NCBI GenBank assembly: GCA_031082225.1
Contig: JAVHLG010000012.1
Span: 242 to 64,241 of the forward strand
Reading direction: 5' to 3'
Length of the DNA: 64,000 nt
Source: Desulfovibrionaceae bacterium
Lineage (GTDB): Bacteria > Desulfobacterota > Desulfovibrionia > Desulfovibrionales > Desulfovibrionaceae
Shown here: piece after piece, positions 53,797 through 60,074 of the stretch
How the letters are laid out: the number at the start of each line of letters is the position of its first letter
Numbering within the stretch: position 1 is the stretch's first letter
Program-made: the position numbers and the translations under genes
Notes under the pieces: model-generated
The model's database searches: none
Seen by the model: the letters and a program-made list of their open reading frames with translations, nothing else
Told to the model about the DNA's origin: nothing

Positions 53797-55962
53797 ATGA
53801 AGCTCGGCTGGAAGCTCTTCCTTCTGCTTCTGGCCTTTTCCCTGACGCCGTTTGTGGCCCTGCGCCTCAACGCCGTGCGCGGCATGGAACGCCTGAGTGA
53901 GGAGTTGTCCGGCCATGTGGCGGCCTTTCTGGTGCGCGAGGCCCAGGGCCGCATGGCCGACCTCGTGGAGGACCACGCCCGGCTTTTGCGCGCCCGGCGC
54001 GACAACCTGGGCCTGCGCCTGCAGCTTCAGGCCGTGGCCGTGCAAAAACGGCTCTTCGGGCAGGCCCCGGAGGCAGCGGCGGAGGCCTCGTTCCCGGTCA
54101 GGATACGGCGCATGGGCATGGCGCGCGGCGGCAGGCCGCCGGATTTCGAGCATCTGCTGCTCGCCCCGGACGGAACCACGCGCCCGGCGTCCGCTCCGGA
54201 CACGGGGCTGCTTTTTACCGCCCCTCCCGGCTCGCCCCTGGCCCCCCTGCGCCCGGAGATGGCCCGGCTGGCCCCCCTGGCGGAGGATTTCGCGGATCTC
54301 TCCCGGCCGGACGATCCGCCCCTGTGGCGGGTGGTGACCCTGACCGACGGCCTGACCGCCGTGACCCTCACAGACGGCAGGCATCCCGGCCTGTTCGATC
54401 CCCGCGACACCTTCTGGTTCAGGTCGGCCCTGGCGGCCGGGCCGGAGGAGGATCCCGTCTGGACCCTGCCCTACATCGTCCCGGCCCTGGACCGCATCAT
54501 GCTGACCGTGTCCATGGCCGTGCGCGACGCCTCAGGCGCAGCCGCAGCGGTCACGGCCATATCCACCCCCCTGGACGACATGCTGGCCGGACTGACCCCG
54601 GGCGGCCACATCTCCCATGAGCTGACCTCGTTTCTGGTGACCGCCGTGCAGCCGGTCGGCGGCGGGGAACGACAGCTCCAGGCGGCGGCCGGGTCGCGGC
54701 CCGGGCGCAACCGCCACGGCTGGCTGGTGCGGGTGGAACCGGAGCAGGTGCGCTCGGAGAATCGCGAGGTTTTCGCCGAGACGGCGCACGACGTGGCCGA
54801 GGGCCGGGCCGGGGTGCGCCGCCTGTCCTTCGAGGGCCGCGACAGCCTGTGGGCCTATGCCCCGGCCGGGCCGGGGCAGGCCCTGCTCCAGATCGCGCCC
54901 GTGGCCGAGGTGCTTGCCGAGGCCGCCACGGCCGCGACCTACGTGCAGCGGCGCATCGCCGAGCAGGTCGCGTTTTCCGGCATCGTGGCCGCAGCGGTCA
55001 TGCTGGTGCTTTTTCCGGCCACGCTTCTCGGGGCGCGCACCGTGACCCGCCCGGCCGCCGACCTGGCCCGGGCGGCCCGCCGACTGGCCACGGGGGATTT
55101 CACGGCCCGGGCCCACCCCAAAGGTCGCGACGAACTGGCGGAACTGGGGCGCATCTTCAACGACATGGCCCCGCAACTGGCGGACCAGGTGCGGATGCGG
55201 GAATCCCTGGAACTGGCCATGGAGGTGCAGTTGCGGCTTCTGCCCAAGGCCCCGCCCCGCGTCCCCGGCCTGGACATGGCCGCCTTAAGCATCTACTGCG
55301 ACGAAACCGGCGGGGATTATTACGACTTTTACGAATTCACCGGCCAAAAACGCGGCCGGGTGGGGGTGGTGGTGGGCGACGTGTGCGGCCACGGCGTGGG
55401 CGCGGCCCTGCTCATGGCCACGGCCCGGGCGCTCATGCGGCCCCGGGCGGCCCTGGCCGTCCCCCCCGGGGAGATGGCGGCCGGGGTGAACCGGGACCTG
55501 TGCCAGGACACCATGGGCACGGGCCGGTTCATGACCCTTTTCTATGTCGAGATCGACCCGGCCGGGCGGTCCCTGCGTTGGGCCCGGGCCGGACACGACC
55601 CGGCCCTGCTCTACGATCCCGCAACCGACGCCTTCACGGAGCTTTCCGGCCGGGGCGTGGCCCTGGGCGTCCTGGACGACGCGGCCTACGAGGACATGCG
55701 CCTCGAGGCCATCCCGGCCGGGGCGGTTTTGGTGGTGGGCTCGGACGGGATTTGGGAGAGCCGCGACCCCGCAGGCGGGATGTTCGGGAAGGCGCGGCTG
55801 GAACGCGTGGTGCGCCAGACGGCCGGACGCGGCGCGGCGGCCGTGGTGGCGGCCGTGGCCCAGGCCCTGGACGATTTTCGCGGCGACGCCCCCCAGGAGG
55901 ACGACGTGACCCTGGTGGTCGTGGCCTTCACCTCATCTCCGGAGGATGCGGCATGTACCTGA
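53797..55962 (+). CDS. membrane SpoIIE/RsbU-type PP2C phosphatase with HAMP domain
   Basis: A 721-residue protein: N-terminal helix (about 5-22), a large extracytoplasmic region (about 30-385) with a dCache-like outline, second helix (about 398-420), HAMP (about 422-475, RTVTRPAADLARAARRLATG), then the PP2C-type SpoIIE domain (about 490-715). DETGGDYYDFYEF and GRVGVVVGDVCGHGVGAALL hold the metal-binding Asp residues; LVVGSDGIWESRDPAG and PQEDDVTLVVVAF hold the rest. Such phosphatases act on phosphorylated anti-sigma antagonists or similar partners in response to an external signal. No STAS or anti-sigma gene is adjacent. Its end overlaps the next gene by 10 bases. Confidence 0.9.
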   Translation: MKLGWKLFLLLLAFSLTPFVALRLNAVRGMERLSEELSGHVAAFLVREAQGRMADLVEDHARLLRARRDNLGLRLQLQAVAVQKRLFGQAPEAAAEASFPVRIRRMGMARGGRPPDFEHLLLAPDGTTRPASAPDTGLLFTAPPGSPLAPLRPEMARLAPLAEDFADLSRPDDPPLWRVVTLTDGLTAVTLTDGRHPGLFDPRDTFWFRSALAAGPEEDPVWTLPYIVPALDRIMLTVSMAVRDASGAAAAVTAISTPLDDMLAGLTPGGHISHELTSFLVTAVQPVGGGERQLQAAAGSRPGRNRHGWLVRVEPEQVRSENREVFAETAHDVAEGRAGVRRLSFEGRDSLWAYAPAGPGQALLQIAPVAEVLAEAATAATYVQRRIAEQVAFSGIVAAAVMLVLFPATLLGARTVTRPAADLARAARRLATGDFTARAHPKGRDELAELGRIFNDMAPQLADQVRMRESLELAMEVQLRLLPKAPPRVPGLDMAALSIYCDETGGDYYDFYEFTGQKRGRVGVVVGDVCGHGVGAALLMATARALMRPRAALAVPPGEMAAGVNRDLCQDTMGTGRFMTLFYVEIDPAGRSLRWARAGHDPALLYDPATDAFTELSGRGVALGVLDDAAYEDMRLEAIPAGAVLVVGSDGIWESRDPAGGMFGKARLERVVRQTAGRGAAAVVAAVAQALDDFRGDAPQEDDVTLVVVAFTSSPEDAACT

Positions 55963-56132
55963 CCGAACGCGACGCCAAGTTCAAATACTGTCCACTGCTC
56001 AAGACCCATGACGACAAGATGAAGTTCTGTCAGGGAGCCATGTGCATGATGTGGCGCGCCGCCCCGGCGGGTCTGCCTTCGGAGACGGGATACTGCGGCC
56101 TGGCCGGCCGACCCGGGCCCAAAGAGTCCTGA
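55953..56132 (+). CDS. 59-residue cysteine-rich protein, unknown
   Basis: ATG at 55953 follows GGAGG at seven bases and overlaps the phosphatase gene by 10 bases, so it is translationally coupled. The sequence includes KFKYCPLLKTHDDKMKFCQG, AMCMMWR and GYCGLAG, giving four Cys spaced C-x13-C-x4-C-x17-C together with a Met-rich run. It looks like a small metal- or Fe-S-binding module. I do not know the family, though similar short conserved proteins occur in Desulfovibrio. The pairing suggests a partner or redox input for the phosphatase. Confidence 0.7.
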   Translation: MYLTERDAKFKYCPLLKTHDDKMKFCQGAMCMMWRAAPAGLPSETGYCGLAGRPGPKES

Positions 56133-56307: not shown

Positions 56308-56378
56308 GCCGTATACCGTTTTTCCGCCCATCCGGCTTCATGTGCGGCGGCGCACCTAGATAAGGAGGTCGATACGGC

Positions 56379-57431
56379 ATGGACCCGGCATCCCTTGCCC
56401 CGCCGCTGGTGACCATCCCCGCTCCCTGGGGGATCTTCGAGGCGCTGTTGCTTGTGACCTTCACCGCCCACCTGCTGTTCATGAACGTGGTCCTGGGGGG
56501 TGCGGTCATCGCGTTTTTCAGCAACGGACGCCGACATTCCCCCACCTACGGTCTGAGCAAAACCCTGCCCACGACCCTGGCCCTGACCGTCAATCTCGGC
56601 GTGCCGCCCCTGCTCTTTTTGTCCGTGCTTTTCGGCGGCTACCTCTACGTGGCCTCGGTGCTGTCGGCGATCTACTGGCTGGCCGTGGCCGCCATCGCCA
56701 TGGCCGCCTATTATCTGCTCTATATTTTCAACTACGGCATGAAAAAGGGCGTCTCCCGCACCCCGGCCCTGGCCCTGGCCGCCGTGCTCCTTTTGTGCGT
56801 CAGCTTCATCATGAGCAACATCATGGGGCTCCTGCAGCGCCCCGAGGCCTGGACCGCCTACTTCGACACCCCCGGCGGCGTCATCCTGAACCTTGCCGAT
56901 CCCACGTTTTTCCCGCGCTGGCTGCACTTCGTCACGGCCTCCCTGGCCGTGGGCGGCCTGTTCATCGCCCTGGTCAACGCCAAGGCCGCCGCCCGGCACG
57001 AGGCGGCGGCCAAATCGAAGATGGCCCTGGGGCTTTCCTGGTTCAACCGGGCCACCATGGTCCAGATCGCCCTGGGGCTCTGGTTTCTCCTGGCCCTGCC
57101 CACGGACGTCATGCTCCTGTTCATGGGTAAAAGCGGCCTGCACACGACGGTTTTTCTGGCCGGGCTTACGGCCGTGGCCGCGGCCCTGGCCTTCGGCCTG
57201 CGCGGCCAGCCCATGCGGGCGGCCCTGTCCGTCGTGGCCACGGTGGGGCTCATGGTCGGGATGCGCGATCTGGTGCGCACGGCCTATCTCGCGCCGTACT
57301 TTCATCCCGAGAAACTGATCGTGGCCCCGCAGTACGGGCCACTAGCCGTCTTCCTGGTCTGTCTTGCGGTCGTGGCCGGACTGGCCTGGTACATGGTGTC
57401 GCTTTACGTGCGCGCCAAAGGGAGGGTCTAG
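56379..57431 (+). CDS. membrane partner subunit of a bd-oxidase-like cytochrome complex
   Basis: A 350-residue integral membrane protein with about nine hydrophobic helices. IPAPWGIFEALLLVTFTAHL and LFMNVVLGGAVIAFF resemble the first helix and following loop of the bd-like subunits, and FFPRWLHFVTASLAVGGLFI carries a His that could bind haem. It lacks CXXCH motifs. Helix His residues (in FTAHLLF and RWLHFV) are ligand candidates. AAGGAGG lies before the ATG. It is separated by three bases from the octahaem fusion gene, so they should form one complex. It could be a diverged second copy of the subunit I fold, a common feature of atypical bd-family enzymes. Confidence 0.75.
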   Translation: MDPASLAPPLVTIPAPWGIFEALLLVTFTAHLLFMNVVLGGAVIAFFSNGRRHSPTYGLSKTLPTTLALTVNLGVPPLLFLSVLFGGYLYVASVLSAIYWLAVAAIAMAAYYLLYIFNYGMKKGVSRTPALALAAVLLLCVSFIMSNIMGLLQRPEAWTAYFDTPGGVILNLADPTFFPRWLHFVTASLAVGGLFIALVNAKAAARHEAAAKSKMALGLSWFNRATMVQIALGLWFLLALPTDVMLLFMGKSGLHTTVFLAGLTAVAAALAFGLRGQPMRAALSVVATVGLMVGMRDLVRTAYLAPYFHPEKLIVAPQYGPLAVFLVCLAVVAGLAWYMVSLYVRAKGRV

Positions 57432-57434
57432 GCC

Positions 57435-60074
57435 ATGGACTATCCTGTCTGGCAGATCGCGGCCACGGGCGGCGGCTTCTGGATCGCGCTCATCGCCACG
57501 GTGCACGTCTTCGTGGCCCACTTCGCGGTGGGCGGCGGGCTGTTCCTGGTCCTGACCGAGGCCAAGGGGCACAGGGAGAACTCCCCGGCCATCTTAAACT
57601 ACGTCAAATCCCACACCGCCTTCTTCCTGCTTCTGACCATGGTCTTCGGCGGGCTTTCCGGCGTGGCCATCTGGTTCACCATCGCCGTGCTCTCCCCGGG
57701 CGGAACCCTGACCCTGGTCAACGCCTTCGTGTGGGGCTGGGCCATGGAATGGACGTTTTTTCTGGGGGAGATCGTGGCCCTTCTGGTCTACCACTATTCG
57801 TTCGGCAAGATGGCCGCCCGGGACCACATGCGCGTGGGCTGGCTGTATTTCCTCTTCGCCTGGCTGTCTCTTTTCACGATAAACGGCATCATCGGGGTCA
57901 TGCTCACCCCCGGGGCCTGGGCCACGACCAACGACTTCTGGGACGGCATGTTCAACCCGTCGTTCTGGCCGTCCCTGGTGTTCCGGTCCTTTCTGGCGTT
58001 TCTGCTGGCCGGGCTGTTCGGGTTCGTGACGGCGATCCGGGTGAAGGACGCGGCCGCCAGGGAGCGGGTGGTGCGCACCTGCGTGGCCTGGGCCGTGGTC
58101 TCCCTGCCGTTTCTGGCCCTGTCCGGCTGGTGGTACCTGTCCGTTTTGCCCCAGGCGACCCTGGATTTCATCCTGCGCGGATCGGCCGAGATCACGCCGT
58201 ATCTCAAGGCCCTGCCGGTCATCGCCGTGGCCGTGGGCGTCTTGGCCCTGCTGATGGCCGTGCGCCTGCCGCTTGCCGTGCGCACCCCGGTGGCCGCCCT
58301 GCTTCTGGTCCTGGGCTTCGGGGTGGTGGGGGCCTTCGAATACATCCGCGAGGCCGGACGGCGGCCCTTCATCATCCAGGAACGCATGTGGTCCACGGGC
58401 ATCGTCCCGGGAAAGGCCGAACCCCTGGCGGACCCGTTTTTGCCGCGCGCGGCATGGGCCAAAAACAAGGAGGTCACGGCGGAAAACCGCCTGGACGCCG
58501 GACGGGAGATCTACGCATTCCAGTGTCTGCCCTGCCATAGCCTGTCCGGGCCCATGAAGGACATCCGCAAATATACCAGGCACATCGGCAATGAGGGCGT
58601 GGCCTCCTACATCACCGGCCAGGGTCGCATCTTCAAGCAGATGCCGCCCTTCGTGGGCAGTCCGGAGGAACGCGACGCCCTGGCCGCCTACATCACGGCC
58701 ACGGTCAACGGCCGTCCCCTGGACAAACCCGTGGTGGCGGACATCAAGACCCTGCCCGTGGACATCCCGGCCTTTGATCCGAACACGGCCTCGCACCTGC
58801 TTTTGTCCTGGTGCACCCTGGGCCTTAAATGCATCACCGACGCCGACGGCTTTTTCACCTTCCTGCCGCCGGGCAGCGCCCTGGGCGCAGTGCTTGTCCG
58901 CCGCGACGTCCTCCCCGAGGTGGTCTCGGACGGGGTGGAGATCACCTACGCCGCCCCGGAGGGTTTCACGCACCCGTCCCGGCATGTGGAATTCTGGAAA
59001 TACGCCCCTTCGCTCATCGGCAAGGCGCCCAAGCCCGACCAGTCCGCCGGGGGCAAGGGTATGGACGGAACCCTGGCCTTCAACGAAAAATCCAGGATCT
59101 TCGAGGCCGCCGGGATTCCCGTGGTTCCCTTTGCCGACGACGGCACCATCAACCCCTATCCGCTGTTCACCGTCACCGCCACGGACAAGGCCACCGGAAA
59201 GGTTCTGGCCGAAACCCGGACGGTCCTGCCCGTGTCCACGGAAATGAGCTGTTGGAAATGCCACGGCGGGACGTTTCGCATCGACGGGGTCATGGGCATC
59301 GCCAACCCCACGGCGGCGGGCATCCTGGCCGTGCACGACAAGCGAAGCGGCACGGATCTGGCGGCCAGGGCGGCGGCGGGCAAGCCCGTTTCCTGTCAGA
59401 GCTGCCATCCCGACGCCCTGTTCGACGCCACGGCCGACCCCAAGCGCCTGAACCTGTCGGCGGCCATGCACGGCTTCCACGTCAACTATCTGACCGGCAA
59501 GGGCGAAGAGGCCTGCGCCAACTGCCATCCGGACAGCCACACCGGAGCGACCCGCTGCCTGCGCGACAACCACGCCTCCAAGGGCATCGGCTGCGCCTCC
59601 TGCCACGGTTTTCTGGAGGACCACGCCCTGACCCTGCTGCGCGCGGAACTGGATGCCGGAAAGGAGCGGGCCGCGATCTTCATGCAAAACATCACCCCGC
59701 GCTCCGTGCCCAAGACCGCAGACATCAATGCCCGTCAGGCCTGGATCCAGGAGCCGGACTGCCTGACCTGCCACAAGGATTTCGCGACCCCGGAAAGGGG
59801 GGCCAGGGCGTTCAACGTCTGGGTCAAGGACCGTTCGGGCCTGTACCGCAGTCGCAAGGAGGACACGGGGAACGTGCCCTGCATCGCCTGCCACGGCGCG
59901 CCCCATGCCACCTACGTGGCCAACAACGTCTACGGCAAGAACCGGGACAACGTGCAGCCCGTGCAGTACATGGGATTTGCCGGGGTTATCGGCAGCAGGA
60001 ACCGGTGCGACGTCTGCCACACCGTGGAGATGGAGGGTGGCGAGATGCACCACCCGAACATGGTCAAGCCATGA
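57435..60074 (+). CDS. bd-oxidase subunit I-like protein fused to an octahaem cytochrome c
   Basis: An 879-residue fusion. Residues 1-320 form about nine membrane helices with CydA-like blocks: ATVHVFVAHFAVGGGLFLVL (N-terminal His ligand region), WGWAMEWTFFLGEIVALLVY (acidic helix), and EYIREAGRRPFIIQERMWST, resembling the GRQPW motif of CydA. From about residue 340 the chain is soluble and holds eight CXXCH haem c motifs near residues 363, 605, 653, 694, 719, 775, 815 and 857 (CLPCH, CWKCH, CQSCH, CANCH, CASCH, CLTCH, CIACH, CDVCH). The quinol-binding loop of true CydA seems missing. This should be a membrane b-haem core passing electrons to or from an extracytoplasmic haem wire. O2 reduction is not established. 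Confidence 0.85.
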   Translation: MDYPVWQIAATGGGFWIALIATVHVFVAHFAVGGGLFLVLTEAKGHRENSPAILNYVKSHTAFFLLLTMVFGGLSGVAIWFTIAVLSPGGTLTLVNAFVWGWAMEWTFFLGEIVALLVYHYSFGKMAARDHMRVGWLYFLFAWLSLFTINGIIGVMLTPGAWATTNDFWDGMFNPSFWPSLVFRSFLAFLLAGLFGFVTAIRVKDAAARERVVRTCVAWAVVSLPFLALSGWWYLSVLPQATLDFILRGSAEITPYLKALPVIAVAVGVLALLMAVRLPLAVRTPVAALLLVLGFGVVGAFEYIREAGRRPFIIQERMWSTGIVPGKAEPLADPFLPRAAWAKNKEVTAENRLDAGREIYAFQCLPCHSLSGPMKDIRKYTRHIGNEGVASYITGQGRIFKQMPPFVGSPEERDALAAYITATVNGRPLDKPVVADIKTLPVDIPAFDPNTASHLLLSWCTLGLKCITDADGFFTFLPPGSALGAVLVRRDVLPEVVSDGVEITYAAPEGFTHPSRHVEFWKYAPSLIGKAPKPDQSAGGKGMDGTLAFNEKSRIFEAAGIPVVPFADDGTINPYPLFTVTATDKATGKVLAETRTVLPVSTEMSCWKCHGGTFRIDGVMGIANPTAAGILAVHDKRSGTDLAARAAAGKPVSCQSCHPDALFDATADPKRLNLSAAMHGFHVNYLTGKGEEACANCHPDSHTGATRCLRDNHASKGIGCASCHGFLEDHALTLLRAELDAGKERAAIFMQNITPRSVPKTADINARQAWIQEPDCLTCHKDFATPERGARAFNVWVKDRSGLYRSRKEDTGNVPCIACHGAPHATYVANNVYGKNRDNVQPVQYMGFAGVIGSRNRCDVCHTVEMEGGEMHHPNMVKP

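Follow-up and report, generated by a model that had tools for sequence, protein, structure and literature searches.

Locus organisation

We analysed a 64,000 nt stretch of the genome of a Desulfovibrionaceae bacterium (assembly GCA_031082225.1, 4.08 Mb in 150 contigs; contig JAVHLG010000012.1, positions 242–64,241 of the forward strand). This whole stretch is termed the window, and all coordinates refer to it. It contains two adjacent genes, 3 bp apart on the + strand and present as a single copy in the assembly, which encode a protein with a membrane core resembling the cytochrome bd subunit CydA followed by eight c-type haem sites (the large subunit), and a second membrane protein (the partner subunit). 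The features of the locus are as follows.

56362–56368, + strand: AAGGAGG, resembling a ribosome binding site, found by inspection of the sequence 10 bases 5′ of the partner start
56379–57431, + strand: partner subunit gene, 350 aa, predicted nine-helix CydA-like paralogue, no c-haem motif
57435–60074, + strand: large subunit gene, 879 aa, CydA-like membrane core with eight c-type haem sites, model pLDDT (predicted local distance difference test) 79
57435–58370, + strand: membrane core, residues 1–312, eight helices, N-out/C-out, with H24, E105, E112, E306, R309 and GRRPF
58350–58370, + strand: EAGRRPF, residues 306–312, counterpart of E445..R448/GRQPW in the alignment of hidden Markov models (HMM-HMM; E306 = E445, R309 = R448)
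58482–58706, + strand: class I cytochrome c domain with a single haem site, residues 350–424, CLPCH at 364–368 and axial Met M403
58752–59234, + strand: beta-rich spacer domain without haem, residues ~440–600, from the secondary structure of the model, with weak fold matches (Z ~5)
59241–60059, + strand: seven-haem c-type cytochrome domain, residues ~603–875, seven CXXCH motifs, Pfam Cytochrome_C7 37.5 bits

Since the pair is flanked upstream by a HAMP-SpoIIE phosphatase gene and downstream by a PAS/GAF hybrid kinase gene on the opposite strand, the two genes look like a two-gene operon. No promoter consensus was found near the partner gene in a promoter scan, and an Rfam scan gave no match. 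A sequence-only reading of the window had described a subunit I-like gene paired with a second membrane subunit; the subunit I-like gene is present and is the downstream one (57435–60074), but its upstream partner is itself CydA-like.

A bd-like membrane core fused to eight haem motifs

As that reading had noted, the bd-like helices, the GRQPW-related motif (305-REAGRRPF-312, with GRRPF in place of GRQPW) and the haem tail lie in one open reading frame (ORF). Pfam matched Cyt_bd_oxida_I to residues 17–233 (27.1 bits, cut-off 26.2), the class I cytochrome c family Cytochrome_CBB3 to residues 352–420 (29.5 bits), and Cytochrome_C7-like haem repeats to the C-terminus. The CXXCH motif occurs exactly eight times, at residues 364, 606, 654, 694, 720, 776, 816 and 858, while 20,000 shuffles of the tail gave a mean of 0.02 motifs and never three. 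Conservation was counted in 91 fused large-subunit sequences and 79 partner sequences. All eight CXXCH motifs were invariant or nearly so (90–91/91) in fused homologues from several phyla, the seven C-terminal ones being kept in 90–91, and C364, C367, H368 and M403 of the single-haem domain were present in every sequence. The latter domain matched the cytochrome c domain of cytochrome cd1 in structure (Z ~6), and candidate distal ligands of the seven-haem domain (H634, H679, H682, H713, H730, H824 and H872/H873) were kept in 85–91 sequences. The large subunit has eight helices, compared with nine in CydA, and their positive-inside loops place the haem tail, as modelled, in the periplasm. The proposed wiring of the membrane core to extracytoplasmic c-type haems is supported.

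This combination of domains is unusual, and the two halves are separate genes in some relatives, as would be expected if the protein were a chimera, a frameshift artefact or the product of a pseudogene. However, the fusion is intact in two genomes of the same genus (85–88% identity, on contigs of >4 Mb) and in ~90 further homologues with invariant haem motifs, which rules out the assembly error or frameshift raised by the sequence-only reading and leaves virtually no probability for an artefact of any kind. Third-position GC content is even across the junction of bd core and haem tail.

Predicted folds of the two subunits

AlphaFold2 models were built from homologue alignments for each subunit separately and without haems, with a pLDDT of 79 for the large subunit and 90.8 for the partner. 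The first 323 residues of the large subunit matched ten CydA structures with Z 29–31 and a root-mean-square deviation (rmsd) of ~3 Å over ~315 residues, the best being CydA of E. coli bd-II (7ose_A, Z 31.1, rmsd 3.0 Å, 315 residues), and Foldseek matched the core to 9r2g_A with an E-value of 1.6e-8. The best PDB matches of the partner were also all CydA chains (Z 26–29, top 28.6, ~330 residues). NrfD-like subunits from alternative complex III came next, with far lower scores (Z 15–19). In HMM-HMM comparison the partner matched the membrane part of the large subunit over 310 columns (E-value 8e-7), indicating by their profiles that the two are paralogues. Because both predicted folds match CydA and the profiles show paralogy, the complex is predicted to consist of two CydA-like subunits rather than CydA plus CydB, and both proteins fall, by modelled fold, within the cytochrome bd superfamily. 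Identification of the partner as CydB was ruled out: it has no match to any Pfam family, CydA chains are its best structural matches, and the only PF02322 match of the genome, belonging to a canonical CydAB, is at C115, away from the window locus.

The large subunit retains the oxygen side and lacks the quinol side

The ligands of haem b558 in E. coli bd-I are H186 and M393, haem b595 is bound by E445, and haem d is located at E99 (PMC6853902). Alignment of the large subunit gave H24, E105, E112, E306 and R309 as equivalents of H19, E99, E107, E445 and R448, and these were kept in 90–91 of the fused sequences, with E306, R309 and P311 in all 91. There is no equivalent of H186 in the large subunit, where the column is occupied by F183 (F or L across the fused family, H in canonical CydA). 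The Q-loop is also absent, as helices 6 and 7 are connected by ~16 residues and the region is mostly gap in the HMM alignment. The b-haem ligands, which had been singled out for checking, are therefore kept at the active site, but the b558 histidine is lost. Nearly all non-fused relatives likewise retain the core residues, the CXXCH and the Met of an MPxF motif, with a protein at locus L237 as the sole divergent row, and apart from L237 the H186 column of these relatives holds F or another residue. A single c haem beside the core thus seems to be common to the whole group.

Conservation of the O2-site residues together with the missing H186 and Q-loop indicates that the large subunit has kept its oxygen side and lost its quinol side, with the c haems as the only redox centres attached to it. 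Full conservation of the oxygen site indicates O2 (or nitric oxide, NO) as acceptor; no evidence was found for the metal or sulfur acceptors named in the sequence-only reading. The missing H186 and Q-loop argue against the description as a quinone-linked module, and we favour an O2 reductase of the bd superfamily that is fed by cytochrome c, to which we assign a probability of about 60%.

The partner subunit

A partner homologue is located just upstream of the large-subunit ORF and on the same strand in 65 loci, compared with 74 loci that have the large-subunit ORF, and several of the loci without it end at contig borders; the pairing with a second membrane subunit thus extends well beyond the window. 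The partner retains H31 (CydA H19) and H183 (at the H186 position) in 78–79 of the 79 sequences, lacks equivalents of E99 and E107, and has RDLVR in place of the E445 motif. On these residues a b haem in the partner is possible, and there is room for a quinol site. M227 was tried as an M393-like b558 ligand and ruled out.

These histidines could instead serve a route in the opposite direction, in which menaquinol would be oxidised at a membrane b haem, probably in the partner, and electrons would leave via the single-haem domain and then the seven haems for acceptors in the periplasm or outside the cell, similar to Geobacter CbcL/CbcBA; this corresponds to the quinone-linked module of the sequence-only reading. 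In the latter, an inner-membrane b-type part is joined to or paired with a multihaem c cytochrome and passes quinol electrons outwards, which resembles the architecture found here, although that membrane part is not known as a bd-type protein. Chains of bis-His haems are typical of electron-export proteins, and homologues are present in strict anaerobes. However, quinol export is difficult to reconcile with the missing Q-loop and H186 of the large subunit, the sole Met candidate near the M393 position of the partner (M227) is kept in just 21 of 79 sequences, no porin or outer-membrane cytochrome was found among the recurrent neighbours, and the strict conservation of the O2-site residues would be left without an explanation. 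We consider such export unlikely.

Distribution and relationship to known bd-type proteins

Of 59 Desulfovibrionales relatives, 39 gave a match, in 37 to the bd-like part and in two to the haem part alone. Related stretches numbered 496 in a scan of 84,980 species genomes. Most of the 80 best were full-length fused proteins, and these 80 came from Desulfovibrionales, Desulfobulbales and Desulfobacterales and from metagenome-assembled genomes (MAGs) of Bacteroidota, Ignavibacteriota, Nitrospirota, Gemmatimonadota and Spirochaetota, phylum labels that call for caution since MAGs may be imperfectly binned. A core-region tree (263 columns, 80 rows) showed four well-supported sets, namely canonical CydA, long Nitrospirota-type bd-like proteins without c haem, c-haem-bearing proteins, and partners, although it was made by a quick method and contains several long branches, making the deep joins unsure. 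The c-haem-bearing and long Nitrospirota-type sets form distinct clades (98% and 99% support, respectively), L237 falls outside the sets, and the c-haem-bearing set is separated from canonical CydA with high support. Together with the CydA fold and the conserved core, this agrees with the earlier suggestion of an atypical branch of the superfamily. Besides the octahaem fusion, the c-haem-bearing set includes proteins with two or three class I domains and a single-haem form of 450 aa whose partner gene lies downstream; a few genomes encode the seven-haem part by its own gene within the operon. The L237 protein (L237:4446-5753) is a divergent c-haem-bearing CydA-like protein that scores 67 bits against Pfam CydA and retains a His close to the H186 column, and is possibly an intermediate between the quinol and c-type families.

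The bd superfamily, already recognised as including non-quinol families, is divided into qOR, OR-C and OR-N, as named after Murali et al. 2021 in PMC13189123 and PMC11707229. Canonical CydAB (qOR; E. coli bd-I, PDB 6rko) shares with the octahaem complex the core fold, the H19/E99/E107/E445/R448 equivalents and a two-subunit composition, whereas the octahaem complex lacks the Q-loop and H186, has eight rather than nine helices in the catalytic subunit, carries eight c-haem sites, and has a CydA-like partner instead of CydB. OR-C was reportedly defined by Murali, Gennis and Hemp in 2021 as c-haem-carrying CydA homologues that lack a quinol site; both the octahaem protein and its single-haem relatives fit this description, and judged by its sequence the octahaem fusion probably belongs to OR-C. 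For the OR-N enzyme CydAA′ of Nitrospirota and Nitrospinota, two CydA-like subunits and a c-type donor have also been proposed (PMC10839748, PMC12342949); quinol-binding residues are absent from OR-N-type proteins (PMC3578206). Unlike the large subunit, the long Nitrospirota-type proteins in our tree (573–740 aa) contain no CXXCH, keep the His at H186 and have lost the E99 equivalent, in addition to forming a separate clade. Periplasmic feeding of a bd-like catalytic protein has likewise been proposed for the TO_1 to TO_4 complexes of Candidatus Manganitrophus, but there the cytochrome subunits are separate and an octahaem fusion is not described (PMC9040806). The urate oxidase PuuD also has eight helices, an N-out/C-out topology and a C-terminal class I cytochrome c (PMC4562309), but it oxidises urate and the large subunit has no Pfam match to its membrane domain, so the similarity is one of architecture only. 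No description of an octahaem-fused bd protein was found in the literature searched, which did not cover Murali 2021.

Host genome and gene neighbourhood

The host is an anaerobe and probably a sulfate reducer. Its genome encodes three class III cytochromes c, and no haem-copper oxidase was found in it. The bd-like part and haem-copper oxidases were not mutually exclusive among the 59 relatives, as 11 carriers of the bd-like part also have COX1. Apart from the gene pair itself, no gene recurred in most of the 80 loci, and assignment of a function from gene neighbours was therefore dropped. A Cys-rich small ORF (~59 aa, 55950–56132) without a Pfam match is located where the SpoIIE-type phosphatase gene ends, a short distance upstream of the operon.

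Two kinds of neighbour suggest an alternative substrate. An NnrU-family membrane protein gene directly follows the large-subunit gene in the Desulfobulbales loci L080, L082, L088, L108 and L127 (eleven in the neighbour cluster), and NnrU is linked to nitrite and NO reductase. Genes for flavodiiron proteins, which can reduce O2 or NO, are located 2–3 kb upstream in four loci. The enzyme could thus use the same periplasmic electron path while its di-haem site mainly reduces NO, for respiration or detoxification. Both neighbours are limited to a minority of loci and neither is found in the window, however, and the site retains the canonical O2-reductase residues; moreover, we know of no bd enzyme that is an NO reductase. 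A role centred on NO is in our view improbable, even more so than quinol export.

Proposed function of the octahaem complex

As a cytochrome-c-fed O2 reductase, the catalytic subunit would have a periplasmic c-haem relay in place of the ninth helix and of the quinol module made up of b558 and the Q-loop. Hydrogenases or formate dehydrogenases would fill the periplasmic cytochrome c3 pool with low-potential electrons, which would enter the seven-haem domain (seven bis-His haems), pass to the single His/Met haem next to the membrane, and reach a pair of b595 and d-type haems, where O2 would be converted to water, the protons coming from the cytoplasm. The complex would in this way probably serve in O2 removal and protection of aerotolerant anaerobes, possibly with some energy conservation. 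Besides the conserved core and the lost quinol parts, the proposal is favoured by the lack of a haem-copper oxidase in the genome, by its three class III cytochromes c, by the flavodiiron genes near four loci, and by the seven-haem module occurring as a gene of its own in the operon or, in its ten-CXXCH relatives, next to formate dehydrogenase subunits. Several observations weigh against this proposal. The H186-type His of the partner (78/79) could accommodate a b haem and a quinol site, no sequence match to a solved cytochrome-c-fed bd enzyme was obtained, the neighbouring genes are too poorly conserved to name a donor, and the need for a second enzyme next to canonical CydAB is not obvious. 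More tentatively still, the complex could represent a third kind of respiratory O2 reductase in anaerobes of several phyla, namely a bd-type enzyme receiving periplasmic low-potential electrons, from H2 or formate, through an eight-haem wire instead of through the quinone pool.

To our knowledge, no bacterial bd enzyme has been shown to use a c-type cytochrome as donor. If the proposal is correct, a bd-type oxidase with such a donor is widespread among sulfate reducers and other anaerobes, and it would join periplasmic H2 and formate oxidation directly to the removal of O2. In Desulfovibrio vulgaris, a double mutant that lacks the two known membrane O2 reductases is still able to deal with low O2 in a way that is not explained (PMC4383621), and the octahaem enzyme, where an organism carries it, could explain the O2 tolerance left after deletion of the known membrane oxidases. 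The operon is small, and with its bd-like part present in 37/59 of the sampled Desulfovibrionales genomes the proposal is directly testable.

Relatives of the haem domains and single-haem forms

At the locus L176 (6720-16160), a cluster of Rieske, cytochrome b and octahaem genes in divergent orientation is found close to a single-haem form and its partner, and could pass electrons from quinol via c-type haems to the oxidase. Cable bacteria have been reported to possess Rieske and CytB proteins along with a CydA homologue, while some of them lack a full bd complex (PMC12093952); this CydA homologue was not retained as a family member, as no sequence tie to the octahaem family was made. A variant cluster at L175 (6192-9994) and L235 (922-4732) encodes a cytochrome subunit with two CXXCH motifs and a CydA-like protein with a single haem site, together with a partner homologue that has two C-terminal CXXCH motifs of its own.

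Relatives of the seven-haem domain with ten CXXCH motifs (607–638 aa) are encoded at L164:4273-9938 and L165:4237-9123, adjoining the gene for the molybdopterin subunit of a formate dehydrogenase predicted to be periplasmic, and at L164 also that for its Fe-S subunit; this neighbourhood would provide an electron-input context for relatives of the seven-haem module. Other Desulfovibrionaceae encode free-standing eight-CXXCH proteins (L161:7921-9609, L162:8603-10522), which comprise the single-haem and seven-haem parts without the bd core, and the one in genome G030 is ~60% identical to the window protein across the haem part.

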